Assembly: GCF_946477935.1 (NCBI RefSeq) | Contig: NZ_CAMLAC010000001.1 | Location: 1 to 64,000 of the forward strand | Length of the DNA: 64,000 nt | Reading direction: 5' to 3' | Origin: an uncultured Sphingomonas sp. | GTDB taxonomy: Bacteria > Pseudomonadota > Alphaproteobacteria > Sphingomonadales > Sphingomonadaceae | In this document: one piece after another, positions 27,526 to 63,908 of the stretch | How the letters are laid out: every line of letters begins with the position of its first letter | How positions within the stretch are numbered: position 1 is the first letter of the stretch | Position numbers and translations under genes: made by a program | Notes under the pieces: model-generated | Database searches by the model: none | Seen by the model: the letters and a program-made list of their open reading frames with translations, nothing else | Told to the model about the DNA's origin: nothing

Positions 27526-27539
27526 CACGGATGGATTTG

Positions 27540-28879: not shown

Positions 28880-28902
28880 GGGATAGCGCCCTGAGCTGCG
28901 TA
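28879..28902 (+). promoter_or_regulatory. ECF-type promoter motif copy E (AGGGAT-N13-GCGTA)
   Basis: agggat agcgccctgagct gcgta, immediately after the sigma gene and upstream of the multicopper oxidase gene. Confidence 0.75.
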
Positions 28903-28946
28903 TCAAGGCTAGAGGGACACTCCCGTTCGAGAGCCTTGAGGACCGT

Positions 28947-30980: not shown

Positions 30981-32269
30981 ACCGGCTGACCGCGGCGCTC
31001 GCCGCCACCACCATGCTCGGCATCGCCGGTCCTGTCGCCGCTCAGTCGATGCAGGGCATGGATCATTCGGCAATGCCGGGCATGACCATGCCGATGCCTG
31101 CGAAAAAGAAGCCGGTGGTGAAGCCCACGGCCAAAGGCAAGCCGGCCAAGACTAGGTCAGCTCCTGCGAGGCGACCATCAGCTTCGACGACGAAACGCCG
31201 CGCCGCGCCAACGGCCGGCATGAATGGTATGGATCACGGGACCATGCCGGGCATGGATCACTCGTCTATGCCCGGCATGGACCATGCGGCTCCGCAGGGC
31301 TCACAGCAGGGCATGGAAGCCATGCCGGGGATGCAGATGCCCGGAAACGGCCAAACGGTCCCTCAGGGCTCCCAGCAGCCGATGCAGGGCATGGACCATT
31401 CGGCGATGCCGGGGATGACCATGCCAGCCGACCAGCACAGCGGCCACGACATGCAGGGCATGTCGGGAATGGCCGGAATGCCAGGCATGGCGGCCGATGG
31501 GGTGCAGCAGACTGGCACCGCGCTTCCCGCAGGAAACGCCCCCGCCCCGCCCCTGCCGACCGACCATGCGGCCGACAGCGTTTACGGCGCGGACGCGATG
31601 GCGATGGGTCGCCATCACCTTCAGCAGCATCACGGCGGTCAAAACTTCAGCCAGGTGCTATTGAACCTCGCTGAGTATCAATTCCGCAACGGTCGTGACG
31701 GCTATCGCTGGGATGGCGAGGCGTGGTTCGGGGGTGACATCAACCGCCTCTTCATCAAGTCTGAGGGCGAGGGAGCCTTCCGCGAGGGCATCGAGAGCGC
31801 CGAGGTGCAGGCGCTCTATAGCCGGACCATTGGCCCTTATTTCAATCTACAAGCGGGTGTCCGCCAGGATTTGGGGCCGTCCCCGAAACGCACCTATGCG
31901 ACCGTCGGGCTGGAGGGGCTGGCACCGGGCTTCTTCGAGCTAGAGGGCGCGGTATTCCTGTCCAACAAGGGCGACCTGCTAGGGCGGCTTGAGGGCTATT
32001 ACGACCAGCGCATCACCCAGCGGCTGATCCTGCAACCGCGCGCCGAGCTCAATTTCGCTGCGCAGGACGTGCCGGAAAACCGGATCGGATCGGGCCTATC
32101 CAACGCCGAGCTTGGATTGCGGCTGCGTTATGAGATCCGGCGCGAGTTCGCCCCCTATGTCGGCGTGTCATGGGATCGCCGCTTCGGCGACACCGCCCGC
32201 TACGCGCGCGCCGATGGGGATCGCGCAACGTCCAAGAGCATCGTCGCCGGCGTTCGTGTCTGGTTCTGA
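30977..32269 (+). CDS. copB: Copper resistance outer membrane protein CopB
   Basis: Met/His-rich N-terminus (MDHSAMPGM repeats), C-terminal CopB-like beta-barrel, ATGA overlap with the oxidase gene. Confidence 0.92.
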   Translation: MNRLTAALAATTMLGIAGPVAAQSMQGMDHSAMPGMTMPMPAKKKPVVKPTAKGKPAKTRSAPARRPSASTTKRRAAPTAGMNGMDHGTMPGMDHSSMPGMDHAAPQGSQQGMEAMPGMQMPGNGQTVPQGSQQPMQGMDHSAMPGMTMPADQHSGHDMQGMSGMAGMPGMAADGVQQTGTALPAGNAPAPPLPTDHAADSVYGADAMAMGRHHLQQHHGGQNFSQVLLNLAEYQFRNGRDGYRWDGEAWFGGDINRLFIKSEGEGAFREGIESAEVQALYSRTIGPYFNLQAGVRQDLGPSPKRTYATVGLEGLAPGFFELEGAVFLSNKGDLLGRLEGYYDQRITQRLILQPRAELNFAAQDVPENRIGSGLSNAELGLRLRYEIRREFAPYVGVSWDRRFGDTARYARADGDRATSKSIVAGVRVWF

Positions 32270-32272
32270 TCG

Positions 32273-32869
32273 ATGGAGGAACAGATGGCTCAAGACGGCA
32301 GGCGCTCGATAAGGCAGCACTTCCCGAGCCTGCCGTTCGTAGGCGCCCTGGCGATCGTCCTGGCGCTGGGCGCAGCCGCGTTTATCTACCTTGGCGTGTA
32401 TAACATCGCGGCCGACGAACCGCACACGCCGGCGGTCTATTCAATGCTCGAACGCCTGCGCGATCGGTCGATTGAGGCACGCGCGCGCGGCATAACACCC
32501 CCGGCCGATCTGGCATCGGCGCAGCGCGTGTCAGTCGGCGCGGGCCTTTACGGAGAAATGTGTTCCGGTTGCCATCTCGGCCCCGGCGTCGAGAAATCCG
32601 AGATGAGCCAGGGCCTCTATCCACAGGCGCCGGAACTCGCGCGCGCTCAAGATCTCACCCCCGCCCAGCAATTCTGGATCATCAAGCACGGGGTGAAGCT
32701 CAGCGCCATGCCGGCATGGGGCAAGACGCATCCCGACCCCCTAATTTGGAATATGGTCGCGTTCGTCCGCAAGCTCCCCGGCATGACGCCCGAACAGTAT
32801 AAGGCACTGGTCGCGAGCGCCCCGGCCGATCACGACGAGATGATGAAGGACATGCCGGGTATGAAGTGA
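32273..32869 (+). CDS. Membrane-anchored cytochrome c
   Basis: Single CSGCH heme motif, N-terminal TM. Confidence 0.82.
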   Translation: MEEQMAQDGRRSIRQHFPSLPFVGALAIVLALGAAAFIYLGVYNIAADEPHTPAVYSMLERLRDRSIEARARGITPPADLASAQRVSVGAGLYGEMCSGCHLGPGVEKSEMSQGLYPQAPELARAQDLTPAQQFWIIKHGVKLSAMPAWGKTHPDPLIWNMVAFVRKLPGMTPEQYKALVASAPADHDEMMKDMPGMK

Positions 32870-32894
32870 CCCCGGCGACGAGGTTGAGGGAGGA

Positions 32895-33632
32895 GTGGTT
32901 CTGAAAAGCGCGAAACTGAGGCTGCATCTACTCGCGAGCCGCACGCACAAATGGCTCGCGATCATCATCGGCGCGCAGCTCCTGCTATGGTTCGCAAGCG
33001 GCGCCCTGATGAGCTTCCTGCCGATCGATCGGGTGCATGGCGATCACCTCGTTGACCGCAAAGCCGCGGCGCCCCTTCCCCGCGGCAGCACGTTCGCCCC
33101 ACCATCGGCGATCGTAGGCGCAGCAGATGCGCCCATCGAGGCCATCACCTATCGCATGTGGCTTGGCCGCCCGGTCGCCGAGGTCGCGACAGCCAAGGGA
33201 ACGCGCCTGTTCGACGCCGCGACGGGCCAAGCGCTGCCAGCACCAACGGCTCGTGAGGCCGAGGAGATCGCGCGTTTGGCATGGCGTCGCGGTGCTCGAC
33301 CAGCGGCGAAGGTAGAGCGGATCGAGCGCGCCAGCCCCGAATATCGCGGCACGCTCCCCGCCTGGCGCGTCGCGTTCGCCGACCTCGATTCCACCCGCGT
33401 CTTTGTCGCGGCCGACACCGGTCGGATCTCGGCTGTCCGAACCGGCACTTGGCGGCTCTACGACTTCTTCTGGGGCCTTCACATCATGGATTGGACGAAT
33501 CACGAGAACTTCAACACGCCCTGGCTGCTCGCCTTCGCGATCGGTGGGCTTGCGCTTTGGTTAGGGGGGGCAGTGCTTCTCTACATGCGATGGCCCAAAA
33601 CGCGGCGTCGCAACATCGTGATCGAGGCATAA
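32895..33632 (+). CDS. PepSY-domain membrane protein
   Basis: HKWLAIIIGAQLLLWFASGALMSFLPIDRVHGDHL; C-terminal WGLHIMDWTNHENFNTPWLL. Confidence 0.75.
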   Translation: MVLKSAKLRLHLLASRTHKWLAIIIGAQLLLWFASGALMSFLPIDRVHGDHLVDRKAAAPLPRGSTFAPPSAIVGAADAPIEAITYRMWLGRPVAEVATAKGTRLFDAATGQALPAPTAREAEEIARLAWRRGARPAAKVERIERASPEYRGTLPAWRVAFADLDSTRVFVAADTGRISAVRTGTWRLYDFFWGLHIMDWTNHENFNTPWLLAFAIGGLALWLGGAVLLYMRWPKTRRRNIVIEA

Positions 33633-33713
33633 TATACGCGGCTCAGGAGCGTAGCCCTCGGAAATAAAGTCCTGTTTCCTGACAATTCCTCGCGCGTTCT
33701 AGCACCCCGGGTG

Positions 33714-33737
33714 AGGGATAGCCGCCTCGCACGCGTA
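33714..33737 (+). promoter_or_regulatory. ECF-type promoter motif copy F (AGGGAT-N13-GCGTA)
   Basis: agggat agccgcctcgcac gcgta, upstream of the DUF305 gene. Confidence 0.7.
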
Positions 33738-33765
33738 GAAGTCTTAGAACCCAAGGAGATCAATA

Positions 33766-34158
33766 ATGCGCTTCGCACCAACATTCGCAGCTTTGGCGCT
33801 GCTCGCCACGCCCGCCCTCGCGCAGCAGAGCGGCGGAATGCAGGGCATGAACCACGGTCAGATGGCCGGCATGAACCACGACGACATGGCGGGCATGATG
33901 GCCGGCAATCCCTACGGCCAGGCCGAGATGGACATGCATCAGAAGATGATGGCGGCCAAGCAGGGCGACGCGGCCGAAATGTGGACGCGCAAGATGATCG
34001 AGCATCACCGAGGCGCCATCGCCATGTCGCGCGTTGCGGTGCGTGACGCGCGCGACGCCGAGACCAAGCGCATGGCGCAGATGACGATCACGAAACAGGA
34101 AAAGGATATTGCCGAGCTGCAGGCGTGGCTCAGCAAGCACGGCAAGCGCCCGCAATAA
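33766..34158 (+). CDS. DUF305-domain protein
   Basis: DMHQKMMAAKQGDAAEMWTRKMIEHHRGAIAMSRVAV. Confidence 0.88.
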   Translation: MRFAPTFAALALLATPALAQQSGGMQGMNHGQMAGMNHDDMAGMMAGNPYGQAEMDMHQKMMAAKQGDAAEMWTRKMIEHHRGAIAMSRVAVRDARDAETKRMAQMTITKQEKDIAELQAWLSKHGKRPQ

Positions 34159-34168
34159 GGGAGCGCTG

Positions 34169-34218
34169 CCCCGCCCTGTCGATCCCCCTACCCCCCGGCA
34201 GGGCGGGGATTTCCTTTT
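34169..34218 (+). terminator. Intrinsic terminator-like hairpin
   Basis: CCCCGCCCTG ... CAGGGCGGGG perfect arms followed by atttcctttt. Confidence 0.6.
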
Positions 34219-34226
34219 AGGAGCTG

Positions 34227-34679
34227 ATGATGAAGAATGGTGTTCGTGGCGCCGTCGCCGCCTTGCTAATGACCATCCCAGCGGTCGCATCGGCCGCGGC
34301 CGACATCGCCATGCACCGCGATCCGGGTTGCGGCTGTTGCGAGAAATGGGCGGCGCAGGTGCGTCAGCAGTTCGGCCGCAAGGTCCAGATCATCGACGAT
34401 GATCGCCGTGAGGTGCTGCAGCGTAAGATCGGCCTGCCCGCTGACCTCGCGTCCTGCCATACCGCGATCATCGACGGCATCGCGTTTGAGGGACATGTCC
34501 CGATCGCAGACATGAAGCGCGCGCTGGCCCAGCATCCTAAAGGCGTGCGCGGCTTGGCCGTGGCCGGAATGCCGATGGGCTCACCGGGCATGGAGGTTCC
34601 CGGCATGAGAACCCAGCCCTATGACGTCATTGCGTTCGGTGCCGCTGGCCGGCGTGTCTTTGCTAGCCACGGCGCCTAA
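34227..34679 (+). CDS. DUF411-domain metal-binding protein
   Basis: MHRDPGCGCCEKWAAQVRQQF; DLASCHTAIIDGIAFEGHVP. Confidence 0.88.
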   Translation: MMKNGVRGAVAALLMTIPAVASAAADIAMHRDPGCGCCEKWAAQVRQQFGRKVQIIDDDRREVLQRKIGLPADLASCHTAIIDGIAFEGHVPIADMKRALAQHPKGVRGLAVAGMPMGSPGMEVPGMRTQPYDVIAFGAAGRRVFASHGA

Positions 34680-34792
34680 ACGACAGGTTGTCTTGTGAGC
34701 GGCAAATCTTCCCCGGCGCTTCATGCCGGCACTACGGCACCCGGCAAACCACCCGTATTGACCTCGGCGTTGACAATTGGGATAGTATCCGG

Positions 34793-35149
34793 GTGTTGAA
34801 AGCTCGTCTTTCTCTCTTGCTTCTTGTTGGAGCGTTGCTTGGCCTTTTGGGCCAAGGAATTGCGTATGCGGCCGGCCCATCGCTCTCACCCAAGATGGCG
34901 ATGAGCCATGTCACCCCATCCCGCATGGATTGCGCGGGTATGGCGACCCCGGATCCGTCATCGGAACACCCATGCAAAGGACTGACGCTGGCGTGTATCG
35001 CCCAAATGGGATGCGTTGTTCCCATGACGTTTGAGGAGCCGGCAAGAGTGCTGAAGCGCTCGATCGCATCTCAAATCGTTATCTGGCCTGCCAGCCGGGC
35101 ACTTGCCGGCCTCAACGTCGCTCCCGAGCCCGAACCGCCTACCGTTTGA
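34793..35149 (+). CDS. Exported hypothetical protein
   Basis: Signal-peptide-like LSLLLLVGALLGLLGQGIAYA; GTG/TTG start inferred. Confidence 0.45.
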   Translation: MLKARLSLLLLVGALLGLLGQGIAYAAGPSLSPKMAMSHVTPSRMDCAGMATPDPSSEHPCKGLTLACIAQMGCVVPMTFEEPARVLKRSIASQIVIWPASRALAGLNVAPEPEPPTV

Positions 35150-35231
35150 TCGAGTCAAGCCGTGTCAGGCTGCAGCCGTTCGCCGGTTGCGGCTCTGCCG
35201 ATTTTAAATCTCGATCAAATTGGAAAGTGAC

Positions 35232-35483
35232 ATGAAAACGTTCATCTTGGCGGTATTTGCCGCTAGCCTCGCCGCGTCGGCAGCGACGGCGGCCACATCT
35301 GAAAATAAAAGCAATGGTCATTGGGAGTGGCGTTCCAATTACCAGCCGGGCCCGCGGGCGCCGCTTCAAGCCCCACGTCGCGTATGGGTTACGGACGTTC
35401 CCCAGTCGAGCGCCTGCGTGTGCCCGATGATGGAACGCGGTCGCGACGCCTGCATGTCAATGAAGGGCGGCCAGTCAACTTAA
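35232..35483 (+). CDS. Small exported hypothetical protein
   Basis: Signal peptide MKTFILAVFAASLAASAATA; CVCPMM motif. Confidence 0.55.
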   Translation: MKTFILAVFAASLAASAATAATSENKSNGHWEWRSNYQPGPRAPLQAPRRVWVTDVPQSSACVCPMMERGRDACMSMKGGQST

Positions 35484-35503
35484 GCTGGCGAGCCTGAACA
35501 GGT

Positions 35504-35535
35504 GCCGGGCTCCGATCAACCATTTGGAGCCCGGC
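35504..35535. terminator. Hairpin upstream of cusC
   Basis: GCCGGGCTCC-N12-GGAGCCCGGC perfect 10-bp arms; no clear U-tract. Confidence 0.45.
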
Positions 35536-35564
35536 CATCATTATGACATGAAGGGACTAGAGGG

Positions 35565-36794
35565 ATGCGCGCATCCATGATGCTCGCGGTCGCCGCGCTC
35601 ACGACGAGCGCCGCGCACGCGCAGACACTTACCTATGACCAAGCGCTGCGCGATGCGGTTGCCAACGCCCCGGGAGCGGTTGCCGGTCGCGCGGGGGTCA
35701 GCGCCGCCCAAGCCGATGCACGTGCGGCGGGAAGCCTTCCGGACCCCCGTGTGTCGATCGGAATCGAGAATTATCCTGTCTCTGGGCCACCCGCCTTCTC
35801 CCTATCCAGAGACGACATGACGATGGGGCGTGTCGGTTTCCAACAGGACCTACCCAACCTTGCCAAGCGTCATGCCGCGCAAGCGCAGGCACGCGCCGTG
35901 ATCGCAACGGCAGAAGCATCGCAAGCGACCAAGCTCCGGGAGGTGCGATTGGGAGCGGGGCAGGCATGGATCGACCTTGCTTATGCCGAGCGTCGACTAG
36001 CTGCCCTCGACACCGTTCTGCTATTCCTTCGATCTCTCCCTTCCGCTGCGCGGGCCGCCGTGACGACCGGTTCGGTCCGCCCTGGTCAGACACTGACGAC
36101 CGATCAGGAGATCGCGGCACTCGACGACCGCCGCGACGAGTTGATGGCCGCCGTTGCGCGCGCCCGCGCGATGCTGGCTCGCTGGACCGGCGTATCGGCG
36201 CCCGAGATTGCCGGCGATATGCCCGCGATCGATCTGGCTCCGGCGCGGCTGCGGGACGCGCTCAGCCTTCACTCCGACATGGTTCTCGCCGAGGCCGGTA
36301 TTCAGCGCGCCCAGGCCGACGTGGATGCGGCGCGAGCGGAGAAGCGACCCGATTGGGGGGTAGAGGTAGCTTATCAACGCCGTGACCCCCGGTATGGCGA
36401 CATGGTGTCGGCGGGAGTTTCGATGAGCCTGCCGCTGTTCGCTCGATCGCGTCAGAACCCGCGCATCGAAGCCCGCAAATCCGCACAGGCGCAGGCCGAG
36501 GCCGCGCGCGAAGAAACCCGGCGCACATTGGCAGCCGATCTGGAGGCCGCGCTGGCGGACCACCAAATGCATCACAGCCAATGGCAGCGCGCGCGCGACG
36601 TGCTCCTTCCGCTCGCTCGGAAGCGAGCCGATCTGGAGATAGCGAGCTACTCTGCCGGTCGCGCGAGTCTTGCGGATGCCATCGAAGCCAAGACCGCGCT
36701 CGCCGACGCCGAGCTGACCGTGCTCGACCGTGAGGCGCTCGTCGCCGCAGACTCTGTCCGCCTCACCATTACCTTCGGGAGCGCCGATCGATGA
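35565..36794 (+). CDS. cusC: TolC-family outer membrane factor (CusC-like)
   Basis: Signal peptide and OEP-type repeats; first gene of an ATGA-coupled RND operon. Confidence 0.88.
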   Translation: MRASMMLAVAALTTSAAHAQTLTYDQALRDAVANAPGAVAGRAGVSAAQADARAAGSLPDPRVSIGIENYPVSGPPAFSLSRDDMTMGRVGFQQDLPNLAKRHAAQAQARAVIATAEASQATKLREVRLGAGQAWIDLAYAERRLAALDTVLLFLRSLPSAARAAVTTGSVRPGQTLTTDQEIAALDDRRDELMAAVARARAMLARWTGVSAPEIAGDMPAIDLAPARLRDALSLHSDMVLAEAGIQRAQADVDAARAEKRPDWGVEVAYQRRDPRYGDMVSAGVSMSLPLFARSRQNPRIEARKSAQAQAEAAREETRRTLAADLEAALADHQMHHSQWQRARDVLLPLARKRADLEIASYSAGRASLADAIEAKTALADAELTVLDREALVAADSVRLTITFGSADR

Positions 36795-38290
36795 GCGACA
36801 CTACCATTACCCGCGCCCGCCTTGTCACCGCGGTAAGCGCGCTGGTGCTGGTCGCAGGGGGCGTGGGCTTCGGGCTCGCGAAACTTGGCACGTCCTCGGC
36901 TGCCGATCAAACGGCATCCCCAGCCCCGCAGAAGAAGATCCTCTACTGGTATGATCCGATGATCCCGGGGGAGCGGCACGACGGCCCGGGTCTCTCGTCG
37001 ATGGGGATGAAACTGATCCCCCGCTATGCCGACGAGGGCGCAGGCGGTAGCGCCGCACCGGGCGTAGCGATCGATCCGGCCAGCCTCCAGCGGCTCGGCG
37101 CGCGGATCGTCACGGTCGAACGCGGATCGTTGTCAAACTCGGCCTCGGCAACCGGCAGCATCGAGTTCAATGACCGCAACGTTGCGGTCGTGCAGGCACG
37201 CAGCGGCGGCTTCGTTCAGCGCGTCTATGCGCGCGCGCCAGGCGATGTCGTGCCGGCAGGCGCCCCGCTCGCCGATATCCTTGTGCCCGAATGGGCGGGC
37301 GCGCAGGCGGAGTATCTCGCCGTGCGCCGCACCGGGGATGCCGGGCTCACGCGGGCGGCACGAGAGCGCCTGTTGCTTCTCGGGATGCCCGCCGGATCGA
37401 TTGCATCGGCGGAGTGGCGCGGCCGACCGCAAGGTGTGACGACGATCAGCACGCCCGTGGGGGGCGTCATCAAGACGCTCGGCGTCCGACAGGGGATGAC
37501 GGTCGCGCAAGGACAGACACTGGCGGAGGTGAACGGCCTCGCCACCGTGTGGCTGAACGCGGCTGTCCCTGAGGCCCTCGCAGGAAACCTGCGGATCGGC
37601 ACGCCCGTCATCGCCACGCTGGCGGCTTTCCCGGGCGAAAGCTTCAGGGGCCGCATCGCTGCGATCCTGCCCCAGGCCGAGGCAGCGAGCCGCACGCTCA
37701 CAATCCGCGTCGAGCTCCCCAACCGTGCCGGCCGGTTGCGCCCCGGTATGTTCGCCAGCGTGGCGCTCGACCAGGGGAGCCGCGATGCACTCCTTGTTCC
37801 GAGTGAGGCCGTGATCCGGACCGGCCGGCGCACACTCGTCATGTTGGCAGGGCCGGGTGGACGCTTTCGACCCGCCGAGGTTCGCACTGGCGCAGAAGGC
37901 GGCGGCAAAACCGAGATAGTCGCCGGCCTGACCGAGGGTGAGAAGGTTGTCGCGTCGGGCCAGTTCCTGATCGACTCCGAAGCGAGCCTCGCTGGCCTCG
38001 ATGCGCGTCCGATTGGTGTCGAAGCGTCACCCGCAACAAAGCCGGCCGTGAAACCCACCGCGTCGATCTACGAGACGGTCGGCAGCATCGAGGCGATCGA
38101 TCGCAGTTCCGTCACCCTGTCCCATCAGCCCGTTCCGGCGATCGGCTGGCCGGCCATGACAATGACGTTCCGCGTCGCCGATCCCGCGTTGGTGCGTGGG
38201 TATCGCAAGGGTGAGCGGGTGCGGTTCGGCTTTGATCAACCCGCCGATGGTCCAACGCTGCGCCGCATGACGCGCGAGGCTGGGCGATGA
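36791..38290 (+). CDS. cusB: RND periplasmic adaptor CusB with C-terminal CusF-like domain
   Basis: N-terminal [31 protein letters not shown]-terminal [15 protein letters not shown]. Confidence 0.92.
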
Positions 38291-41200
38291 TTGCCGCGAT
38301 CATCCGCTGGTCGGTCGCGAACCGCTTCCTCGTCGTCCTGGCGGCCATCGCGCTCGCCATGGCCGGGGTGTTCGCAATGCGTGCCACCCCCGTCGATGCG
38401 CTCCCCGACCTGTCCGACACGCAGGTCATCATCCGCACGAGCTGGCCGGGCCAAGCCCCGCAGATCGTCGAGAACCAGGTGACGTATCCGCTCACCACGA
38501 CGATGCTGTCCGTGCCTGGCGCGAAAACCGTGCGCGGCTATTCGTTCTTCGGCGACAGCTACGTCTATGTCCTCTTCGAGGATGGGACCGACCTCTATTG
38601 GGCGCGCTCACGCGTGCTGGAGTATCTGAGCCAGGTGCAGGGACGGCTTCCCCAAGGCGCGCAGGCCGCGCTGGGTCCTGATGCGACGGGGGTCGGCTGG
38701 GTCTATGAATACACGCTGTTGGACCGCACCGGCCGCCGTGACCTGTCGCAGCTCCGATCCTTGCAGGACTGGTTCCTACGTTATGAACTGAAAACGCTGC
38801 CCGGCGTTGCGGAGGTGGCGAGCATCGGCGGAATGGTGAAGCAATATCAGGTGCTGCTCGACCCGACGCGGCTCGCCGCATTCGGTGTCACGCACACTCA
38901 GGCCGTCGATGCCATTCGCCGCGCCAATCAGGAGGCCGGCGGGTCCGTCCTCGAGCTGGGCGAAGCCGAATATATGGTGCGCGCGCCAGGTTACTTGCGC
39001 ACCGTCGACGATTTCCGCGCGATCCCGCTCAAGGTCGCCGGTGCCGGCGTCCCCGTTACCTTGGGCGACGTCGCGTCGATCCAGATCGGCCCCGAGATGC
39101 GCCGCGGCATCGCCGAGCTGAACGGCGAAGGCGAGGTCGCGGGCGGAGTCGTCATCCTGCGTCAGGGCAAGAATGCACGGCAGACGATCGAAGCCGTCAA
39201 GGCCAAGCTCGCGGAACTGAAAGCGAGCCTTCCCCCCGGCGTCGAGATCGTCACCACCTATGACCGCTCGCAATTGATCGACCGCGCGGTGGAGAATTTG
39301 ACGGGCAAGCTGATCGAGGAGTTCGTCGTCGTCGCGATCATCTGCGGGTTGTTTCTGTGGCATGTCCGGTCTGCGCTGGTCGCGATCGTCACCTTGCCTC
39401 TGGGGGTGCTCGCGGCCTTGCTCGTCATGCGTGTGCAGGGGGTGAACGCCAACATCATGTCTTTGGGCGGTATCGCCATCGCGATCGGCGCGATGGTCGA
39501 TGCCGCGATCGTGATGATCGAGAACGCGCACAAGCGGATCGAGCGATGGGAACACGACCATCCGGGCGTGGCGCTGGCGGGCGAGGAACGCTGGCGCGTC
39601 ATCACCGAGGCCGCGGCCGAGGTCGGGCCGGCGCTGTTCTTCAGCCTCGTCATCATCACGCTGTCGTTCGTGCCGGTGTTCACGCTCGAAGCGCAGGAGG
39701 GACGGCTGTTCGCCCCGCTCGCCTTCACCAAGAGCTATGCGATGGCGGCAGCGGCGATCCTGTCGGTAACGCTCGTGCCGGTCCTGATGGGATGGCTGAT
39801 CCGGGGACGCATTCCGGCCGAGAACGACAACATTATCAACCGCGTGCTCACCCGTGCCTATCGCCCGGCGCTCGACCGCGTGTTGGCGCGGCCTTGGGCG
39901 GCGATCGGCATCGCCGCCCTGGTACTGGCGACGACGGCATGGCCGCTGACCCGATTGGGTGGCGAGTTCATCCCGACGATGGATGAGGGCGATCTGCTCT
40001 ACATGCCGTCCGCGCTTCCCGGCCTTTCGGCCGCGAGCGCCTCGGCCCTGCTCCAGCGCACAGACCGGCTGATAAAAACCGTTCCCGAGGTCAAAACCGT
40101 GTTCGGCAAAGCCGGGCGCGCCGAGACCGCGACCGACCCGGCACCGCTCGAGATGTTCGAGACGACCATCCAATTCAAGCCGCGCGATCAATGGCGCGCG
40201 GGGATGACGCCGGCAAAGCTGGTGGAGGAGCTGGACCGCACAGTGCGCGTGCCCGGCCTCACGAACGTATGGGTGCCTCCGATCCGCAATCGGATCGATA
40301 TGCTCGCGACCGGCATCAAGAGTCCCATCGGGGTGAAAGTGTCGGGGTCCAACCTCTCCGAGCTGGACCGCATCGCCGGCAGCATCGAACGTGTCGCCAG
40401 GACCGTGCCGGGCGTCAGCTCGGCATTGGCAGAACGGTTGACCGGAGGCCGCTATGTCGATGTCGATATCGATCGGGTGACCGCGGGGCGCTACGGTCTC
40501 AACATCGCCGATGTGCAGGAGATTGTGTCCGGCGCGATCGGCGGCGAGACGATCGGCCAGACGGTGGAGGGCCTTGCCCGCTACCCGATCAGCGTCCGCT
40601 ACCCCCGCGAGCTGCGTGACAGTCTGGAGGGACTGCGAACTCTCCCAATCGTCACCGCATCGGGTCAGCAGATCACACTCGGCACCGTCGCATCCGTGTC
40701 GATCGCGGAAGGTCCACCGATGCTCAAGACGGAAAATGGTCGACTCTCGACATGGGTCTATGTCGACGTGCGCGGGCGCGACCTGGCCTCCACGGTCGCC
40801 GATCTGCGCCGTGCTGTTGGCAAAGATGTTCGGCTCAGCCCCGGCGTCTCGATCGCCTATTCCGGACAATTCGAGTATCTGCAGCGTGCCGAGGCTCGGT
40901 TGATGCTCGTCGTGCCGGCGACACTCGCGATCATCTTCCTTCTCCTCTACCTTACCTTCGGTCGCCTCGACGAGGCGGCGCTTATCATGGGCACACTGCC
41001 CTTCGCGCTGACCGGCGGCATCTGGACATTATGGCTGCTCGGCTATGCGCAATCGGTCGCCACAGGTGTCGGGTTCATCGCGCTCGCCGGCGTGTCGGCG
41101 GAGTTCGGCGTCGTCATGCTGATCTACCTGAAACACGCATTGGCCGAGCGCGGGCCGTCACCGTCGGGCGAGCAAGTATCGGAAGCGATCAGGGAGGGCG

Positions 41201-41424
41201 CGCTGTTGCGGGTACGTCCCAAGGCGATGACCGTCGCTGTCATCGTCGCCGGGCTGTTCCCCGTGCTGATCGGGCATGGCGCCGGATCGGAGGTGATGAG
41301 CCGGATCGCCGCGCCGATGATCGGTGGAATGCTGACCGCCCCTTTCCTCTCCATGTTCATCCTGCCAGCCGCCTACTTGCTCTTGCGGCGGCGAGCTTCA
41401 ACCCGCCCCGAAAGGAAGATCTGA
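38287..41424 (+). CDS. cusA: CusA-family RND copper/silver efflux transporter
   Basis: 1045 aa [41 protein letters not shown]. Confidence 0.95.
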
Positions 41425-55373: not shown

Positions 55374-55570
55374 TGCAAATGAACGCGCGGAACCGCCAAG
55401 TGCTGGCAATATTTCCCTCCACCTTTGGCTTCCCCGATTGAGAAAGTTCGGGGGCAAGGCAATAAGCCACTACCGGCGCCGCCATCGTCCTCGGCTTGGT
55501 TTACCCAAATGTGTTCCCGATTGCTCTTTCTCAAATGTGATCATCGGGCATGGAAAATGAAGAGCCCGAA

Positions 55571-55600
55571 CCGCCAGAAAAACGACCGGTTTTCTGGCGG
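55571..55600. repeat. Perfect inverted repeat upstream of resolvase gene (candidate res subsite)
   Basis: CCGCCAGAAAA-ACGACCGG-TTTTCTGGCGG; further TTTTCTGGC half-copy at 55686-55694. Confidence 0.7.
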
Positions 55601-55703
55601 TCGAGGATTTTGCCTCCTCAGCGCATTCCGAAGATCGGAAAACCCGTTGCGGAAACCACCGGCACATTGCAGGGTACCGGATGACTTTTCTGGCAGGGTA
55701 ACG

Positions 55704-56348
55704 ATGCTCATCGGATATGTGAGGGTGTCCAAGGCTGACGGGTCGCAGACGCTGGCACCCCAGCGCGATGCGTTGCTCGCTGCTGGCGTCGATCCCTCGC
55801 GAATTTATGAAGACCTCGCGTCGGGGCGGCATGACTCGCGACCTGGCCTGACCGCGTGCCTGAAGGCACTGCAGCCCGGCAACACACTGGTCCTCTGGAA
55901 GCTGGATCGTCTTGGGCGCGACCTCCGCCATCTGGTAGTCACGGCCGAGGCGCTACGCGAACGCGGCATCGGGCTGAAGGTGCTGGCGGGCGCCGGCGCG
56001 CAGATCGACACCACGACAGCTAACGGCCGGCTTGCCTTCGGCATCTTCGCGGCTTTCGCCGAGTTCGAACGTGAGCTTATTGCTGAACGCACGCAGGCGG
56101 GGCTTGCTGCTGCACGTGCACGGGGCCGGATGGGCGGTCGGCCTCGCAAGATGGATAAGGCCACGCTGGCGATGGCAATGGCCGCCATGTCCGACCGCAA
56201 CGCGATCGCAGCCGATGTCGCGCGCCGTCTCGGGATGACGACCACGACACTCTATATGTACGTGAATGGCGACGGCACGCCCAAGGCGCCGGGCCAGGCG
56301 CTGCTCGACGGTGTGCCGTATCGCAAAGAACGGCTGCAAGCCGCGTGA
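55704..56348 (+). CDS. Serine recombinase/resolvase (Tn3 TnpR-like)
   Basis: MLIGYVRVSKADGSQTLAPQRDAL; LVLWKLDRLGRDLRHL; AFAEFERELIAERTQAGLAAARARGRMGGRP. Confidence 0.92.
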   Translation: MLIGYVRVSKADGSQTLAPQRDALLAAGVDPSRIYEDLASGRHDSRPGLTACLKALQPGNTLVLWKLDRLGRDLRHLVVTAEALRERGIGLKVLAGAGAQIDTTTANGRLAFGIFAAFAEFERELIAERTQAGLAAARARGRMGGRPRKMDKATLAMAMAAMSDRNAIAADVARRLGMTTTTLYMYVNGDGTPKAPGQALLDGVPYRKERLQAA

Positions 56349-57870
56349 TGAATCACGCCGCGCCTCAGCGATCAGGCATATCGTCGAGCAGGGGAGGCGA
56401 TCACGTCGTGTTCAATCGACCGGGCCGAGATTTCAGCCGGAGTCAGGGCCGCGGGGACGCACACCCCCCGACGCGGCTTGCCGTTCAGTCGGTTCGATCG
56501 CGCAAGGATCATCAGGTTCATCACCGCCGCGCCGATCAGGAACTCCTCTTCCGCTCCGCGGATACCGCGCAGGTGAAGCCGCCTCATGCCACGCTTACCC
56601 TTGGCGTCAGCGAAGAACCGTTCAACCCCGCGCCGCAACCGCATAGACCGCTTGTAGAGCCCGGTTTCCACTTCGGCTCTGGCAAGATCGCGGACGTCCT
56701 CATCGTCCAGCCGAACCAGGGTACGACGCCGCGCCGTCGTGCATTTCTTCCGAAGCACGCACGCCTCGCAGTCACGCGCATCGGCTGCATAACGGTGTAC
56801 GCCGGTGGGCAGATGGAAGGCATGATGTCGGAGCGGCTTTCCGGTCGGACAGGTAAAGCTGTCAATGTCACGATCATAGCTGAAGGCCGTCCGCGGCAGC
56901 TTGCCCTTGGTCTGTTGCGTACGGTCGATTACCGGAATGTGCGGGATTGCGCCGTGATCCCTTACGAAGCCGAGGAAGTTGGCGCTGCCATAGGCTTTGT
57001 CGGCCGCAACCCGCTTGGGACGATAATCAAAGCGATCGGCCGATCGCTCGAGCATGACGCGCCCCGCATCAACTTCCTCCGCGAACCGAGCCGGTGTCGC
57101 CTTCACATCGAGAGCGACGCCACTCGGGGTGTCGACCAGCGCATTCAGGGCGTAGCCGAACCGGCCACGCACCGTTCGCGCCGACCAAGCCGCGGCAGGA
57201 TCCGTTCGAGAGACGCCTTGGCAGCTTTTCGAGCGCGCCATTTCAAAGACGGCATCTCTTGTGTCGTGCACCCACTCCCTAACCGCGCGCGACGCGTTGG
57301 CGACATACGGCAGGTAGCCAGGAACGGTCTTGCGCTGCCAGCTCGCATCAGCCGCTATGAACGATGCATCGATCGCGGCGTCTTTTCCGCCAATCAGTCC
57401 TTCACTGATGCAGCGTCGGACCGTGCTTTCGAACAGGATCCGGAACACGTCGGCATCGCGGAAACGACCGTGCCGGTTCTTGCTGAACGTCGAGTGGTGC
57501 GGAACCTTGTCTCCCGGCGCGAGACGGCAGAACCAGCGATAGGCCAGATTGTAGCGCAGCTCCTCACACAGGCGCCGTTCGGACGTGATCGCGTAAATGC
57601 GGCCGACCAAGGCCATGCGGATGAGGAGTTCGGGATCGATCGATGGCCGTCCCCTTGCGCTGTAGTGACCGGCCAGTGCCTGTCTCAACTCGCCGATGTC
57701 GAGACATCGATCGACGCGACGCAGCAGGTGGTCTGTGGGCAACATGGCTTCTATGGTGCGGCGGGACGCCCCGTCCCGCTTACCGCGACAGGCTGGTCCC
57801 ATCATAGCGACGCTCCTTTCGGCAGCCATGAAACGAAGGAGCAACCCAGCATGTCCGGCATTTTTCAACA
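56349..57870 (-). mobile_element. IS1182-like insertion sequence (approximate bounds)
   Basis: Transposase ORF plus terminal-like GGCCTGTTGAAAAATGCCGGAC at the 57.85-57.87 kb end; opposite terminal repeat not identified. Confidence 0.55.
56372..57805 (-). CDS. IS1182-like transposase
   Basis: HYSARGRPSIDPELLIRMALVGRIYAITSERRLCEELRYNLAYRWFCRL; GKDAAIDASFI; CEACVLRKKCTT; start uncertain. Confidence 0.88.
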   Translation of the reverse strand: MMGPACRGKRDGASRRTIEAMLPTDHLLRRVDRCLDIGELRQALAGHYSARGRPSIDPELLIRMALVGRIYAITSERRLCEELRYNLAYRWFCRLAPGDKVPHHSTFSKNRHGRFRDADVFRILFESTVRRCISEGLIGGKDAAIDASFIAADASWQRKTVPGYLPYVANASRAVREWVHDTRDAVFEMARSKSCQGVSRTDPAAAWSARTVRGRFGYALNALVDTPSGVALDVKATPARFAEEVDAGRVMLERSADRFDYRPKRVAADKAYGSANFLGFVRDHGAIPHIPVIDRTQQTKGKLPRTAFSYDRDIDSFTCPTGKPLRHHAFHLPTGVHRYAADARDCEACVLRKKCTTARRRTLVRLDDEDVRDLARAEVETGLYKRSMRLRRGVERFFADAKGKRGMRRLHLRGIRGAEEEFLIGAAVMNLMILARSNRLNGKPRRGVCVPAALTPAEISARSIEHDVIASPARRYA

Positions 57871-58079: not shown

Positions 58080-58733
58080 TCAGCCGCCCTGCTCGGGCTT
58101 AATCGCCCTCGAGCGGTGGAGTGCGGTCACGCGCTTGACATGAGCGATGCTGCATCCGGCGAGCTCCGCAGTTTTCGCGATGCTCATGCCCGCCTCCCTC
58201 AAACTTACGATGCGTCGATGGTGGGCGATATCCGGCTTGCGGCCGGTGTAACGCCCCGCCCTCTTCGCAACTTCGATGCCCTCGCGCTGCCGCTCGCGCC
58301 GCGTGTCGTAGTCGTCGCGCGCCGTCTGCAGCGCCACCCGCAGCAGCATGTCCTGCACCGCCTCCAGCACGATGCGCGCCACGCCCGCGCTGTCTGCCAC
58401 CAGGTCGGACAGGTCCACGATCCCCGGCACTGCGAGGCGCGCCCCCCTGCCTCGGATCGTCTCCACCAGCAGCTCCGCCTCCGGCAGCGGCAGGCGGCTG
58501 ATCCGATCGATCTTCTCGGCCACCACCACCTCGCCCGGCTGCAGGTCCGCCACCATGCGCAGGAGCTCCGGTCGGTCCGGCCGCGCGCCCGACGCCTTCT
58601 CCCGGTACACCGCCGCGACGTAGAAGCCGGCCGCCTTGGCGCCGGCCACGATGTTCTCCTGCCGCGTCAGGTCCTGATCGTCCGTGCTAACCCGCAGGTA
58701 GACGCGCGCTACCTTCACTCCGCTGCCTGCCAC
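58080..58733 (-). CDS. Serine recombinase/invertase family protein
   Basis: VARVYLRVSTDDQDLTRQENIV; VVVAEKIDRISRLPL; C-terminal HTH AGMSIAKTAELAGCSIAHVKRV. Confidence 0.9.
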   Translation of the reverse strand: MAGSGVKVARVYLRVSTDDQDLTRQENIVAGAKAAGFYVAAVYREKASGARPDRPELLRMVADLQPGEVVVAEKIDRISRLPLPEAELLVETIRGRGARLAVPGIVDLSDLVADSAGVARIVLEAVQDMLLRVALQTARDDYDTRRERQREGIEVAKRAGRYTGRKPDIAHHRRIVSLREAGMSIAKTAELAGCSIAHVKRVTALHRSRAIKPEQGG

Positions 58734-58982
58734 CTACTCATCACTCCTGCCCGGCGTTCTTGGGTATACCCTTGTGAGCCAGTCATGCAGCAATCGGCTC
58801 AGAACGGCAACTACCGGTCCTACGTAGCCTAGCTAAGCGGACCGGGTCTAAGTAGCTGCCCCATTATCGATGAACGCTATTTCGGTGATCGGCCGTGCAT
58901 TAATCCCTGCCTTCACGCTGGCGTCCGACTTTGCTCTCCGGTACAAGGTCTTGGACGGGTTGTATCAGCGGGTTTGGTGCAG

Positions 58983-59231
58983 ATGGAAGCACAGAGGGTC
59001 AAGATCGTGGACGGTGGTAAGCTCGTGATCCCGGCGGCAATGCGCCGTGAGCTCGGGATCACCACGGGTGACACCGTCCTCGTCGATGTGGACGATGGCG
59101 AGCTGCGGGTACGTTCCGTACCTAAGGCACTTGAGCGTGCTCGCGCGATCCTGCGCAAGTATGTGCCCGAAGGCGTCGGCTTGGCTGACGAGCTGATCGC
59201 GGAGCGTCGGCGTGAGGCGGAGCGTGAGTAG
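58983..59231 (+). CDS. AbrB/MazE-like antitoxin (VapB-type)
   Basis: VKIVDGGKLVIPAAMRRELGITTGDTVLVDVDDGELRVR. Confidence 0.85.
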   Translation: MEAQRVKIVDGGKLVIPAAMRRELGITTGDTVLVDVDDGELRVRSVPKALERARAILRKYVPEGVGLADELIAERRREAERE

Positions 59232-59622
59232 CAAAGTCGTACTCGACGCCTCCGCCCTGCTCTGCCTTCTAAACGATGAACCCGGGGCGGATCGGATAAT
59301 CGACGTCCTGACCCGCAGCATCATCGGAACAGCCAACCTCGCGGAGGTCGTTTCCAAGCTACGGGACCGAGGATTGCCGCTCGACGAGGTACGTGAGGCA
59401 CTTGGCGGGCTGCATCTCGATGTCCGGCCGCTCACTCCTGCCCAGGCGCTCATAGTAGGCGACCTTCGGCCAGCGACGAAGGCGCTCGGTCTGTCCCTCG
59501 GCGATCGGGCATGCCTTGCCTTGGCGATCGACCTGCAAGCTGAGATGCTTACAACGGACGAGCCACTTGCGAGCGCCGATGTAGGCATCACCATCACCAA
59601 CGTGCGCCCCTTGGCAGAGTAG
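59224..59622 (+). CDS. vapC: PIN-domain toxin (VapC-like)
   Basis: VVLDASALLCLLNDEPGAD; LSLGDRACLALAIDLQAEMLTTDEPLA; GTG start overlapping the antitoxin stop. Confidence 0.88.
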   Translation: MSSKVVLDASALLCLLNDEPGADRIIDVLTRSIIGTANLAEVVSKLRDRGLPLDEVREALGGLHLDVRPLTPAQALIVGDLRPATKALGLSLGDRACLALAIDLQAEMLTTDEPLASADVGITITNVRPLAE

Positions 59623-59670
59623 TCGCACATTCGTGCTTTTAGGTTCGGCACTCTGCTGGCGGGGACTCCC

Positions 59671-61065
59671 ATGACTACCGCTCCGACACCGGTGCGCGAC
59701 ACAATTCTGATCACGCACGCCAATCCTGAGGACAATCGCTTCGCCCGGTGGCTTGCCGGGCGCCTAACCACGGCCGGATACAAGGTCTGGGTCGACGTTC
59801 GCGCGCTTCGGGGCGGCGACGATTTCTGGGACAAGATCGAGCACGTGCTGCGGCACGAGGCGATCAAGCAGATCGTCGTCGTGTCCGAGCACATCGGCAA
59901 GCAAGGCGTAAAGAAGGAACTCGCCCTCGGCGACGTCATGCGTCGCAAGCTAAACGACCCGGAGTTTATGGTCCCAATCCGGATCGCCGCCGTGGACTTC
60001 GGCGATTTCCCCACAGAGATCCTCCGCCAGAACGCACACAATGCGTTCCCTAACTGGGCAGCCTGCCTTCAGCCCTTGTTCGAGACGCTCGACACCTCAC
60101 GTGTACCGAAGGTCGAGCATCCGGACGCCGAGCAGCTTGCGATGATCGTCGCTGCCCAAGAGGACGGTCGAAAGCTGGTCACGCTAAATTCCGAGACGCT
60201 TTACAGCAACTGGTTCGAACTCCGGGCGAGGCCTGACGTCTGGATCCTGGAGGCGAAGGGAACGACTGCGCAGCTGGAAGCGTGGAGCCAGTTCACCAAG
60301 GTTCCCCACGTCCTTCACGAGGGAGGCGCTATCGCCTTCTGCGGACCCGATGCGATCGAGCGTCTCGATAATGGCGCGCCGCCGTTGAAGGCACGCGCTA
60401 GCCTGCCCTTCAACGGCGTGATCGACGGTACATATAGCCGCCACTTCGGTGAGCGTTCCAACGCGCGGCGGATCGCCGTCAACCTGATGCGTCAGCATTG
60501 GGACCTGGCCATGCATCGTCTCGGGCTACTTCCTGTCGATTTCGCCTCGGGCGCCCGAGGCCGCTTCTTCCCCGACGGACTCATCGACGGAAGGGTGAAG
60601 CTGACGCTGAGCGACGGCCATCGGGTCGACCGTGTCCTGAGCGGCAAGTTCAAGGACCGGCGCTGGCATCTGTGCCTTGTCGCTCAACCCAAGCTCTGGC
60701 CGGATGCTCTCTTCCGGGTCCATGCCAATGTTGCGGTGACGACCAATGGCCGAACCCCGCTCCCGGGTGAACAGCTGCAGCGCATCCGGTTGCGCCTCAC
60801 GCGGTCTTGGTTCAACGACAAATGGCGCGACATGCTGCTTGCCGCAATGGGCTGGCTTGCCGAAGGTGATGCGACCTTAGATATTGCCGCGTCCGGTGAG
60901 CGCCTCGCGGTCGCTAGCCTACCAATGAGCTTCGACTTTCCGGTCAGCTTCGCCGCGGAAGAAGACCGCCGAGCCGAGGAAGACGAGGGAGGCCAGATAA
61001 CTCTGTCAGAGGACTTCGAAACGGCCTTCGACCGGGATGGGATACCGGAGGAGGCCGACGCATGA
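59671..61065 (+). CDS. TIR-APAZ protein (SPARTA-type short Argonaute partner)
   Basis: N-terminal TIR-like ILITHANPEDNRFARWLAGRLTTAGYKVWVDVRALRGGDDFWDKIE...GVKKELALGDVM; ~300 aa C-terminal APAZ-like region; ATGA-coupled to a short pAgo gene. Confidence 0.88.
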   Translation: MTTAPTPVRDTILITHANPEDNRFARWLAGRLTTAGYKVWVDVRALRGGDDFWDKIEHVLRHEAIKQIVVVSEHIGKQGVKKELALGDVMRRKLNDPEFMVPIRIAAVDFGDFPTEILRQNAHNAFPNWAACLQPLFETLDTSRVPKVEHPDAEQLAMIVAAQEDGRKLVTLNSETLYSNWFELRARPDVWILEAKGTTAQLEAWSQFTKVPHVLHEGGAIAFCGPDAIERLDNGAPPLKARASLPFNGVIDGTYSRHFGERSNARRIAVNLMRQHWDLAMHRLGLLPVDFASGARGRFFPDGLIDGRVKLTLSDGHRVDRVLSGKFKDRRWHLCLVAQPKLWPDALFRVHANVAVTTNGRTPLPGEQLQRIRLRLTRSWFNDKWRDMLLAAMGWLAEGDATLDIAASGERLAVASLPMSFDFPVSFAAEEDRRAEEDEGGQITLSEDFETAFDRDGIPEEADA

Positions 61066-62597
61066 GCATCCTCACGCACCGCATCGCCGAGCCTTTGCTC
61101 GAGTTCGGTCACGGGCAGCAGATGGAAGCGCCAAAAGATGGGCTCTTCCTCTTCGGGCCGCTCGAAGGTCCAGATGGCCGCTCCCAGGTCCGCTTGGGCG
61201 TCATCGGGACGGAGAGCGGCGTCGGCCTATCCCGCCGCTGGTTAGAGCGGATCAGCCTGCATATTCCCGGTAAGGTCGATGCAAAGGGCAAGCCCGTCCT
61301 ATGGGCACCCGCATGGCCAGGCTTCGAGGCCTGCTTCGGCATCGCGCTGCCGACCCGCGGCATGGTCGAGCTAGCGGTCAAGAGCGGCGACATCGATCAT
61401 TGCATCAAAAAGAACAATCGCGCCGACGCGGTTCGTTCCACGGTGCTGCTGTTCGCCGACGCGATCCGCGCGCACATCCGCGCCGAGGAGCGCCGTCCCG
61501 ACGTCTGGCTCGTTGTCGTTCCGGACGTCGTCTATCGCTATGGACGCCCCCAGGTCGCACCACCGCCCAAGGACGAGCGCACCCCCTCCGACATCACGAG
61601 CTTCAAGGACGCCAAACGCTTCTTCCAGATGGGCGGCGACCTGTTCCCCGACACGGTGCGGGATGCCGAGACCTACCTGTTCTCAAGCAATTTCCACCAT
61701 CAGCTGAAAGCCGAGTTGCTGCAGGACGGCGTCGTCCTGCAGCTGATTCTCGAGAGCACGTTGGTCGACCGCAACCTCAACATTGCCAACGACCGCCGGC
61801 GCGGCCTCCAGGACGAGGCCACGGTTGCCTGGAACTTCTGCACCACGCTCTACTTCAAGATGGACGCCAAGCCGTGGGCGTTGGCTCATGTCCGTCCTGG
61901 CGTTTGCTACGTCGGACTGGTGTTTAAGAACGACGACACGCCTGCGGCAACGGGCGAGGCCTGTTGCGCCGCGCAGATGTTCCTCAACTCAGGCGACGGC
62001 CTCGTCTTTCGCGGCGCCCTCGGCCCCTGGTACTCCGACGAGCGCAAGGAATATCACCTCTCGAGGAGCGCGGCGGCGAATTTGATGACCTCCGTGGTCG
62101 AGGGCTATAAGCTCAAGCACGGCAAGCCACCGAACCAGCTGTTCATTCATGGGCGTCACCGCTTTTCCAACGATGAGTGGGACGGCTTTTGCAGCGCAGT
62201 GCCCACCGAAACACAGCTGGTAGGAGTCAGGATCAAGCAGCTCGATGATGTTCGGCTGTTCCGTCCCTCTGCGTCGACACCCGTCCTCCGCGGCACGGCC
62301 CTCACCGTGGGTGACTGGTCAGGTTACCTTTGGGCGCGGGGGTTCGTGCCTCGGCTGGCAGGGTATCAAGGGTTCGAGACCCCCAAGCCGCTCACCGTCG
62401 ACGTGACGCATGGCGAAGGGGACATCGTAGAGGTGCTCGGTGACATCCTTGCGCTCACCAAGGTCAACTATAACGCCTGCGATTTCGCGAGCGCCCTGCC
62501 CGTGACGCTCAAGTTCGCCGATCGGGTAGGTGAGATCCTGATGGCGTCGCCACATACCGTTACCGCACCGCCGCTGCCGTTCCGGCACTACATCTGA
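61062..62597 (+). CDS. Short prokaryotic Argonaute (MID-PIWI, catalytically degenerate)
   Basis: 511 aa; MID-like VWLVVVPDVVYRYGRP; PIWI-like CYVGLVFKNDD...LFIHGRHRFSNDEWDGF; C-terminal PPLPFRHYI. Confidence 0.88.
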   Translation: MSILTHRIAEPLLEFGHGQQMEAPKDGLFLFGPLEGPDGRSQVRLGVIGTESGVGLSRRWLERISLHIPGKVDAKGKPVLWAPAWPGFEACFGIALPTRGMVELAVKSGDIDHCIKKNNRADAVRSTVLLFADAIRAHIRAEERRPDVWLVVVPDVVYRYGRPQVAPPPKDERTPSDITSFKDAKRFFQMGGDLFPDTVRDAETYLFSSNFHHQLKAELLQDGVVLQLILESTLVDRNLNIANDRRRGLQDEATVAWNFCTTLYFKMDAKPWALAHVRPGVCYVGLVFKNDDTPAATGEACCAAQMFLNSGDGLVFRGALGPWYSDERKEYHLSRSAAANLMTSVVEGYKLKHGKPPNQLFIHGRHRFSNDEWDGFCSAVPTETQLVGVRIKQLDDVRLFRPSASTPVLRGTALTVGDWSGYLWARGFVPRLAGYQGFETPKPLTVDVTHGEGDIVEVLGDILALTKVNYNACDFASALPVTLKFADRVGEILMASPHTVTAPPLPFRHYI

Positions 62598-62653
62598 TCC
62601 CATGAGCGCCGACTGAGGCAGATGGGAGTTCGATCCTAAGGCGAAGACGCTGA

Positions 62654-62726
62654 CGTCCACCAATTTAGGTACAAATCCGCTGTTTTGGGTGCGTGCCGCT
62701 GGGCAGATGCCGTCCACCATTTCAGG
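62654..62726. repeat. Two near-direct repeats upstream of integrase
   Basis: CGTCCACCAATTTAGGT (62654-62670) and CGTCCACCATTTCAGGA (62711-62726). Confidence 0.5.
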
Positions 62727-62792
62727 AAAACCTACAGCGCTCCGGTAGCCAGTTCGGCACCCGAAAAGCTGGACGGAGCCGATCGAGCCGAC

Positions 62793-63908
62793 ATGCGTAA
62801 CGAAACCACGGACGATGCCGCGAACAACGGGAGAGAGCTTGATGCGATCGTGGCTGGCGCGGTGGTGGTGCTGGATCAGGTCACGTCCCTCGAGCCCTAT
62901 CTCCCCGATCTTGCCCCCGACGATCGCGAACGCGTCGACGCCTATGTCGGCCGCGCCTCGGCCGACGCGACACTGCGCGCGTACAAGTCCGACTGGCGGC
63001 TCTTCTGCGCGTGGTGCGGCGAGGCGGGCTACCGGCCGCTCCCCGCGACACCGACGACCGTTGCCGCGTTCCTGACGCTGCTCGCTGAAACCGGCTTCGC
63101 GCCGCGCGAGCCGCAGCGCACCAAACGCGGGCGGATCATGCCCCGCCAGGAGCCGCGCCCGCTCGGCAAGGCGACGATCGGGCGGCGCCTCGCCGCGATC
63201 GTGTTCGCGCATCGCGCGGCCGACATGGAGCCACCCACCACCCAGCCCGATGCCGCCCGGCTTCAAAAGGCGATGCGCGCGATCCGCAAGGACAAGAAGG
63301 ACGAGTTGCCCGCCAAGAAGCGCGCGGCCGATGGCGACGTGCTGCGCGACATGCTCCGCAGCGTCACCGGCGAGGACCTGCGCGCCTATCGCGACCGCGC
63401 GCTGCTCGCGATCGGGATGGCAGGCGCGTTCCGGCGCTCGGAGCTGGTGGCGATCACGGTCGGCCGCGTCACCGAAGACAGCCGCGGATTGCTGGTGCGG
63501 ATCGGGTCGTCGAAAACTGATCAAGAGGGCAAGGGCCATACCGTCGCCATCCCCGACGGACGAAGGCTGGAACCGGTGCGCCACTATCGCGCGTGGCTGG
63601 AGAAAGCCGGAGTCAGCGAGGGGCCTGTCTTCCGCAAGCTGACGCCGCAGGGCCGCCTCACCGAAAAAGCGATGAGCGCCCAGGGCGTCGCGCTGGTAGT
63701 GAAGGCCGCCGCAATCGCCGCCGGCTACCCGCCCGAACTGTTCTCAGGTCACAGTCTGCGCGCCGGCTTCCTGACCGAGGCAGGCCGGCAGAATGCCAAC
63801 CTGTTCAAGATGAAGGAGCATAGCCGCCACAGCTCCTTGGAGATGGTCGCTGAGTATGTCCGCGACCACGAACGCTTCCGAGAGCATGCGGGAGAAGGCT
63901 TCCTTTAG
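62793..63908 (+). CDS. Tyrosine site-specific recombinase/integrase
   Basis: AGAFRRSELVAIT (Arg I), SGHSLRAGFLTEA (H-x-L-R), HSSLEMVAEYV (Tyr region). Confidence 0.92.
   Translation: MRNETTDDAANNGRELDAIVAGAVVVLDQVTSLEPYLPDLAPDDRERVDAYVGRASADATLRAYKSDWRLFCAWCGEAGYRPLPATPTTVAAFLTLLAETGFAPREPQRTKRGRIMPRQEPRPLGKATIGRRLAAIVFAHRAADMEPPTTQPDAARLQKAMRAIRKDKKDELPAKKRAADGDVLRDMLRSVTGEDLRAYRDRALLAIGMAGAFRRSELVAITVGRVTEDSRGLLVRIGSSKTDQEGKGHTVAIPDGRRLEPVRHYRAWLEKAGVSEGPVFRKLTPQGRLTEKAMSAQGVALVVKAAAIAAGYPPELFSGHSLRAGFLTEAGRQNANLFKMKEHSRHSSLEMVAEYVRDHERFREHAGEGFL

Follow-up and report, generated by a model that had tools for sequence, protein, structure and literature searches.

SPARTA systems pair a short prokaryotic Argonaute (Ago) with a TIR-APAZ protein: the guide RNA-loaded Ago recognizes invading DNA, and the TIR domains consume NAD(P)+ (PMC11156904, PMC10474274). 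This mechanism is known from few solved systems, and those used here as references are Maribacter polysiphoniae SPARTA (Map), Crt-SPARTA, and BabAgo/TIR-APAZ (PDB 8fex/8ffi, 8ifk/8isy/8u72, 8qlo/8qlp). Among described carriers, the Tn5053/Tn402 family has the layout tniABQ-res-tniR and consists of res-site hunters; Tn6606 and Tn6607 are tni-defective, and such elements are thought to depend for movement on tni functions in trans (PMC7765201). The locus described here combines features of both, and we conclude, with a probability of roughly 85%, that a SPARTA operon is carried together with VapBC on a 4-kb mobile unit that has a tni-type right end. SPARTA itself is an already known type of immune system; the carrier is the new part, and is apparently undescribed within the literature searched. 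Full-text searches combining Sphingomonas with SPARTA or short Argonaute gave no paper in the library used, which is incomplete.

An earlier note on the window (the whole 64,000-nucleotide stretch analysed) had read two ATGA-coupled ORFs as a divergent alphaproteobacterial SPARTA carried as cargo in a metal-resistance island. Both ORFs are present, with the lengths and positions given there, and they overlap at 61062-61065 on the same strand, consistent with a single operon. The expected TIR N-terminus and APAZ C-terminus are seen in the first product, where Pfam TIR_2 matches with an E-value of 4.3e-13 and the PADLOC profile Aga_TIR-PNTD1-PNTD2 covers residues 8-438 (E=1.5e-144). The second product has no Pfam match, and PADLOC pAgo_I covers residues 6-511 (E=6e-194). 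NCBIfam has no model for either protein, and its sole match, to the TIR part, is far under the cut-off. In a sequence search of solved structures, SPARTA chains are matched at E=3e-114 by the Ago and at E=2e-47 by TIR-APAZ; together with the profile E-values, this means that the match is not due to chance and that the first reading was right. Predicted models of the two proteins (mean pLDDT 85.0 for TIR-APAZ and 87.3 for Ago) also return SPARTA chains first, with the Ago fold having a TM-score of 0.91 to Crt-SPARTA 8isy, and the 32 best structure matches of TIR-APAZ all being SPARTA. Full-length TIR-APAZ TM-scores against SPARTA chains are about 0.5 and the rmsd is large, as would be expected from a different arrangement of the TIR and APAZ domains; partial APAZ chains give TM-scores of 0.75-0.77 by target length. 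Profiles, solved and predicted structures, and active-site residues thus agree, and make it virtually certain that the operon is a SPARTA.

Table 1. Positions of the SPARTA operon, its mobile unit, and neighboring features in the window.
Feature	Coordinates	Strand	Remarks
Metal-handling genes	969..41424		two RND pumps, two P-type ATPases, multicopper oxidase, FTR1-like permease
Second serine recombinase	55425..56348	+	left of unit
Transposase (DDE, DUF772)	56372..57868	-	left of unit
Serine resolvase, ParA/TnpR-like	58080..58733	-	Pfam Resolvase and HTH_7; allele exchanged relative to unit
Left junction, GGGTATACCCTTGTGAGCC	58762..58781		alleles switch at 58762-58767 in independent pairs; proposed res crossover site
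Mobile unit, VapBC and SPARTA	58768..62736		0-2 differences/~3,962 bases in four contexts, both flanks unrelated
MazE/AbrB-type antitoxin	58974..59231	+	Pfam MazE_antitoxin E=2e-8; in shared block, travels with SPARTA
VapC-type PIN toxin	59212..59622	+	Pfam PIN E=2e-9; in shared block, travels with SPARTA
SPARTA insert relative to SPARTA-free elements	59650..62648	+	compared with source genome contig C42, G158, S. aliaeris punnamed2
TIR-APAZ effector subunit of SPARTA	59671..61065	+	464 aa; TIR 12-107, APAZ C-terminal; Glu at residue 83
E83 codon	59917..59919	+	corresponds to catalytic E77 of Map/Crt SPARTA; invariant in relatives' alignment
Short prokaryotic Argonaute	61062..62597	+	511 aa; MID-PIWI, no PAZ; acidic PIWI tetrad mostly lost
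Right end, tni-type	62649..62736	+	three TCCACYATTTCRGG-like repeats (62656, 62676, 62713), terminus AAAACCTACA
Tyrosine recombinase (integrase)	62685..63908		beyond right edge of unit

Residues described in PMC11156904 and PMC10474274 were mapped onto the window proteins through alignments to solved SPARTA. The glutamate of the GVKKEL motif, E83, which had been put forward as the catalytic residue, falls at the position of E77 in the solved SPARTA TIR domain and is the probable catalytic Glu. W46 corresponds to W53 and the aromatic Y105 to F110, and the TIR-TIR contact residues R114 and N116 are kept as R119 and N121. The guide 5'-phosphate pocket (Y148, H207, K211, N468, and the C-terminal I507) is matched by Y158, H212, K216, N471, and I511, of which H212, K216, and N471 are invariant in the alignment of relatives' Agos and I511 is nearly so. 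The PIWI tetrad positions are V287, Y331, R365, and D487, leaving one acidic residue as in the aligned chain 8fex_B, and with the tetrad replaced, target cleavage is not expected. At other positions reported to matter in Map/Crt SPARTA, including ones involved in tetramer formation, the residues differ: V160 and D165 stand in place of Y154 and L159 of the bridging helix, D38 stands in place of Y37 at the Ago dimer contact, and several of the APAZ contacts are changed; some of these interface differences may reflect misalignment of loops.

A scan of genome contigs found 425 related Ago loci, of which the best 79 were kept; among these 79, the upstream gene is on the contig in 73, and in all 73 it encodes a TIR-APAZ that has the Glu equivalent to E83. 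In a maximum-likelihood tree, the window falls within a well-supported Sphingomonas group; this group is nested among further sequences from alphaproteobacteria, in a supported and mostly alphaproteobacterial clade, and is far from the two solved SPARTA references. Identity to solved SPARTAs is about 35% for the Ago and about 25% for TIR-APAZ, and calling the system divergent and alphaproteobacterial is fair, with the operon still recognized by the PADLOC models. Between copies, dN/dS is 0.016-0.055 for the Ago and 0.057-0.124 for TIR-APAZ (leaving out identical copies and one broken Ago, that of S. aliaeris), and this strong purifying selection indicates that the system is maintained. The source genome contains one match to the window's Ago family. 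Phage and viral contigs gave no relative at the sensitivity used, and phage carriage of the system was dropped from consideration. Four rhizobial SPARTA operons (L017, L019, L020, and L021) are on conjugative plasmids, with TIR, SIR2, QueC-like, DNA glycosylase, or Hachiman genes as neighbors; in that of Aminobacter pAA04 (L019, 4539-5809), TIR-APAZ is annotated as two pieces adjoining an intact Ago gene.

The same block of DNA is found in 14 other records, four of them plasmids and ten of them genome contigs (L024-L031, L038, and L042). The four plasmid carriers are PLSDB records with MPF_F typing, all large sphingomonad plasmids. Four copies (the window, L002, L024, and L038) define the edges: in all six pairs there are 0-2 differences over ~3,962 positions from 58775 to 62736, the left flanks are 14-44% different within the resolvase gene and 59-78% beyond it, and the right flanks are 62-83% different. 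Differences on the left stop at 58762-58767, and those on the right start at 62737-62740. In two further pairs, L003/L004 and L028/L042, the left side is swapped at 58764-58767, with agreement across the unit and the right flank, and in L025, which has no resolvase, unrelated DNA reaches up to the same left point. An initial placement of the left edge at the resolvase 3' end (58113-58120), taken from blastn ends, gave way to 58762-58767 when identity was plotted over the length of the block. These patterns argue for a mobile unit with these edges, which we regard as very probable. The part of the earlier note that made the operon cargo stands, although not in the sense it implied, and all of the neighbors it listed (VapBC, two serine recombinases, and a tyrosine recombinase) are present, with metal-transport genes across much of the remaining window; the unit does not, however, include the tyrosine integrase or the second serine recombinase. 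DNA similar to the stretch with the window's transposase and second serine recombinase is also found to the left of the unit in L026.

The left point is 29-35 bp upstream of the resolvase start, and the resolvase gene has only 72-85% DNA identity between copies where the unit is ~100% identical. We infer that this point is the crossover site of the resolvase's res region, an assignment drawn from the coincidence of the junctions beside the resolvase and not from a match to a known res sequence, with GGTATACCC as the putative exchange site. No inverted or direct repeats of at least nine bases link the two edges of the unit.

The right edge is of a different kind. All unit copies terminate in ...TCCACCATTT(C/A)AGG(A/G)AAACCTACA, and inside this terminus every copy has one or two extra, weaker copies of the 14-base motif. 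A 24-base pattern of the end, allowing three or fewer mismatches, was searched against 15 carrier genomes or records with the reversed pattern as a control. It is present once per SPARTA unit, once at each of two SPARTA-free elements (G158 and S. aliaeris punnamed2), and at three further places on three other replicons, all beside tniA; the reversed pattern has no matches. At the annotated one of these additional places, on pSCLO_2, the genes are tniA-tniB-tniQ. Because matching ends are beside tniA, we identify the unit's right edge as a transposon end of the tni type (Tn5053/Tn402-like); an IS21 origin was dropped once tniA was found there. By tblastn, neither the window and its downstream extension nor the loci fetched for the other carriers gave a match to tniA, tniB, or tniQ, and a search of window and loci that allowed up to 4-5 substitutions found no inverted partner of the end; for these reasons we do not file the unit as a member of the Tn5053 family. 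Elsewhere in the source genome, contig C31 (L159, 8275-9969) carries TniB- and TniQ-like genes, which may be a source of tni functions or a relic of them.

Versions of the unit without SPARTA exist (contig C42 of the source genome, genome G158, and S. aliaeris plasmid punnamed2), with MazE/VapC and the right end but only ~150 to 310 bp from the end of vapC to the edge, and the operon is thus an insert just behind vapC. The C42 element (L138, 8899-10577), a resolvase-VapBC element with the same right-end type, adjoins a 1024-aa relaxase-like ORF. In Sphingomonas sp. NIC1 (L104, 6448-7876), resolvase and VapC have a DUF5131 gene behind them in place of SPARTA, a possible alternative cargo. Two Sphingomonas copies (L032 and L033) have Agos 87-89% identical to that of the window, and the match is confined to the SPARTA genes, so these copies are not in the mobile unit. 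Likeness to the SPARTA-free elements stops near 59650, leaving little room before the TIR-APAZ start codon for a SPARTA promoter, and transcription is likely to come from the toxin-antitoxin operon. A scan for sigma-70-like promoters across 58700-62800 is uninformative, with no sites found and 0.6 expected.

Taken together, these features lead to the following model. The Ago would bind a 5'-phosphorylated guide RNA and recognize complementary invader DNA; recognition would assemble the complexes and activate the TIR domain of TIR-APAZ, and the TIR domains would then destroy NAD(P)+, halting or killing the cell before the plasmid or phage spreads. Judged from its anatomy and the established mechanism, the operon quite probably acts in vivo by this SPARTA mechanism. 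At the left edge, neighboring DNA is swapped, probably by the resolvase acting at res, and the unit, which lacks a transposase, probably depends for its movement on tni functions provided in trans, as is thought for tni-defective Tn5053-family elements. That movement uses both tni in trans and resolvase exchange is, on balance, favored. More tentatively, and with some doubt, we suggest that this is a distinct type of sphingomonad unit: transposase-less, res-bounded, with one end of the tni type and, behind vapC, a slot open to exchange that holds SPARTA, the latter being read from the toxin-antitoxin operon. If so, resolvase exchange together with tni in trans would constitute a dedicated shuttle of immune cargo among plasmids.

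There are other ways to account for these observations, and two of them concern what SPARTA does. It could mainly guard the plasmid that carries it from rival plasmids and mobile elements, with addiction contributed by VapBC and with multicopy or invading plasmid DNA as the trigger of NAD depletion, and not serve in phage defense. Carriage on large sphingomonad plasmids with a toxin-antitoxin pair directly upstream fits this, as does the lack of any phage or viral contig carrying the system, and PMC10474274 describes TIR-APAZ/Ago as immunity against mobile genetic elements. All of this is nonetheless compatible with phage defense too, and relatives on other plasmids are among TIR, SIR2, QueC-like, and Hachiman genes, like those of ordinary defense islands; we consider plasmid protection an appreciable possibility, although not the favored one. 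It is unlikely that the operon is non-functional in its host, or that its assembly for activation is unlike that of Map/Crt SPARTA. The Map/Crt bridging-helix and dimer residues are not conserved, which would be consistent with either, but the TIR active site and guide pocket are retained, selection is strongly purifying, and SPARTA is intact in all but one of the 14 other copies of the unit as well as in the window. The S. aliaeris punnamed1 copy (L002, 14345-15878) is a natural broken one, otherwise near-identical, with its Ago frameshifted and annotated as hypothetical fragments, and it could be taken to favor loss of function.

The remaining two concern the vehicle. Homologous recombination between related plasmids could generate a shared block that is not a mobile unit with defined ends, and there are indeed alternative alleles of the block at 88-96% identity, with long right or left flanks common to some copies. 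This is hard to reconcile with four essentially identical copies that have unrelated flanks and edges at the same bases, or with a right edge matching tni ends beside tniA elsewhere, and we think it improbable. Least probable of all is mobilization by the adjacent tyrosine integrase, the vehicle implied in the earlier note; although the window and several copies have a tyrosine recombinase after the right edge, these recombinases differ strongly among copies, none adjoins the right edge in L002, and the gene is beyond the unit's right edge. The integrase was thus rejected as the mover, and the preferred explanation remains that SPARTA and VapBC travel on a 4-kb unit with a tni-type end.

Transposon ends that target res sites are best known from mercury resistance and class 1 integrons, and the unit described here suggests that they can carry RNA-guided immunity. 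Its recently moved copies, intact copies, one broken copy, and the SPARTA-free elements form a natural set, mostly in named Sphingomonas isolates, in which the role of a SPARTA for the plasmid carrying it and the spread of short-Argonaute systems can be studied. As an immune system it is like the solved SPARTAs in its two-gene operon with TIR-APAZ first, its catalytic Glu, guide pocket, inactive PIWI, and Ago fold; it differs from them in its low identity, in its bridging-helix, Ago-dimer, and some APAZ contact residues, in belonging to a mostly alphaproteobacterial clade, and in residing in a mobile unit. The alphaproteobacterial relatives used for comparison (Mesorhizobium albiziae, Phenylobacterium, Sulfitobacter, and the Sphingobium YC-XJ3, Agrobacterium, and Rhizobium plasmids) have the same operon, with Agos 43-70% identical and the Glu kept where the upstream gene is present, but in the loci examined they are outside a resolvase-VapBC unit, and several are beside TIR, SIR2, or Hachiman genes. 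Tn7-like transposons with defense genes (PMC8649781) are similar in having a related transposase group and defense cargo, whereas the window unit has no tns or tni genes; Argonaute is not mentioned in the main text of that cargo survey. Relative to Tn5053/Tn402 elements, the unit has no left end that could be found, no 5-bp target duplication like that of the family could be defined, and its cargo is VapBC and SPARTA in place of mer or an integron. It nonetheless resembles that family, and Tn6606 and Tn6607 especially, in having an end with subterminal repeats common to tniA ends, an adjoining resolvase, and no tni genes of its own.
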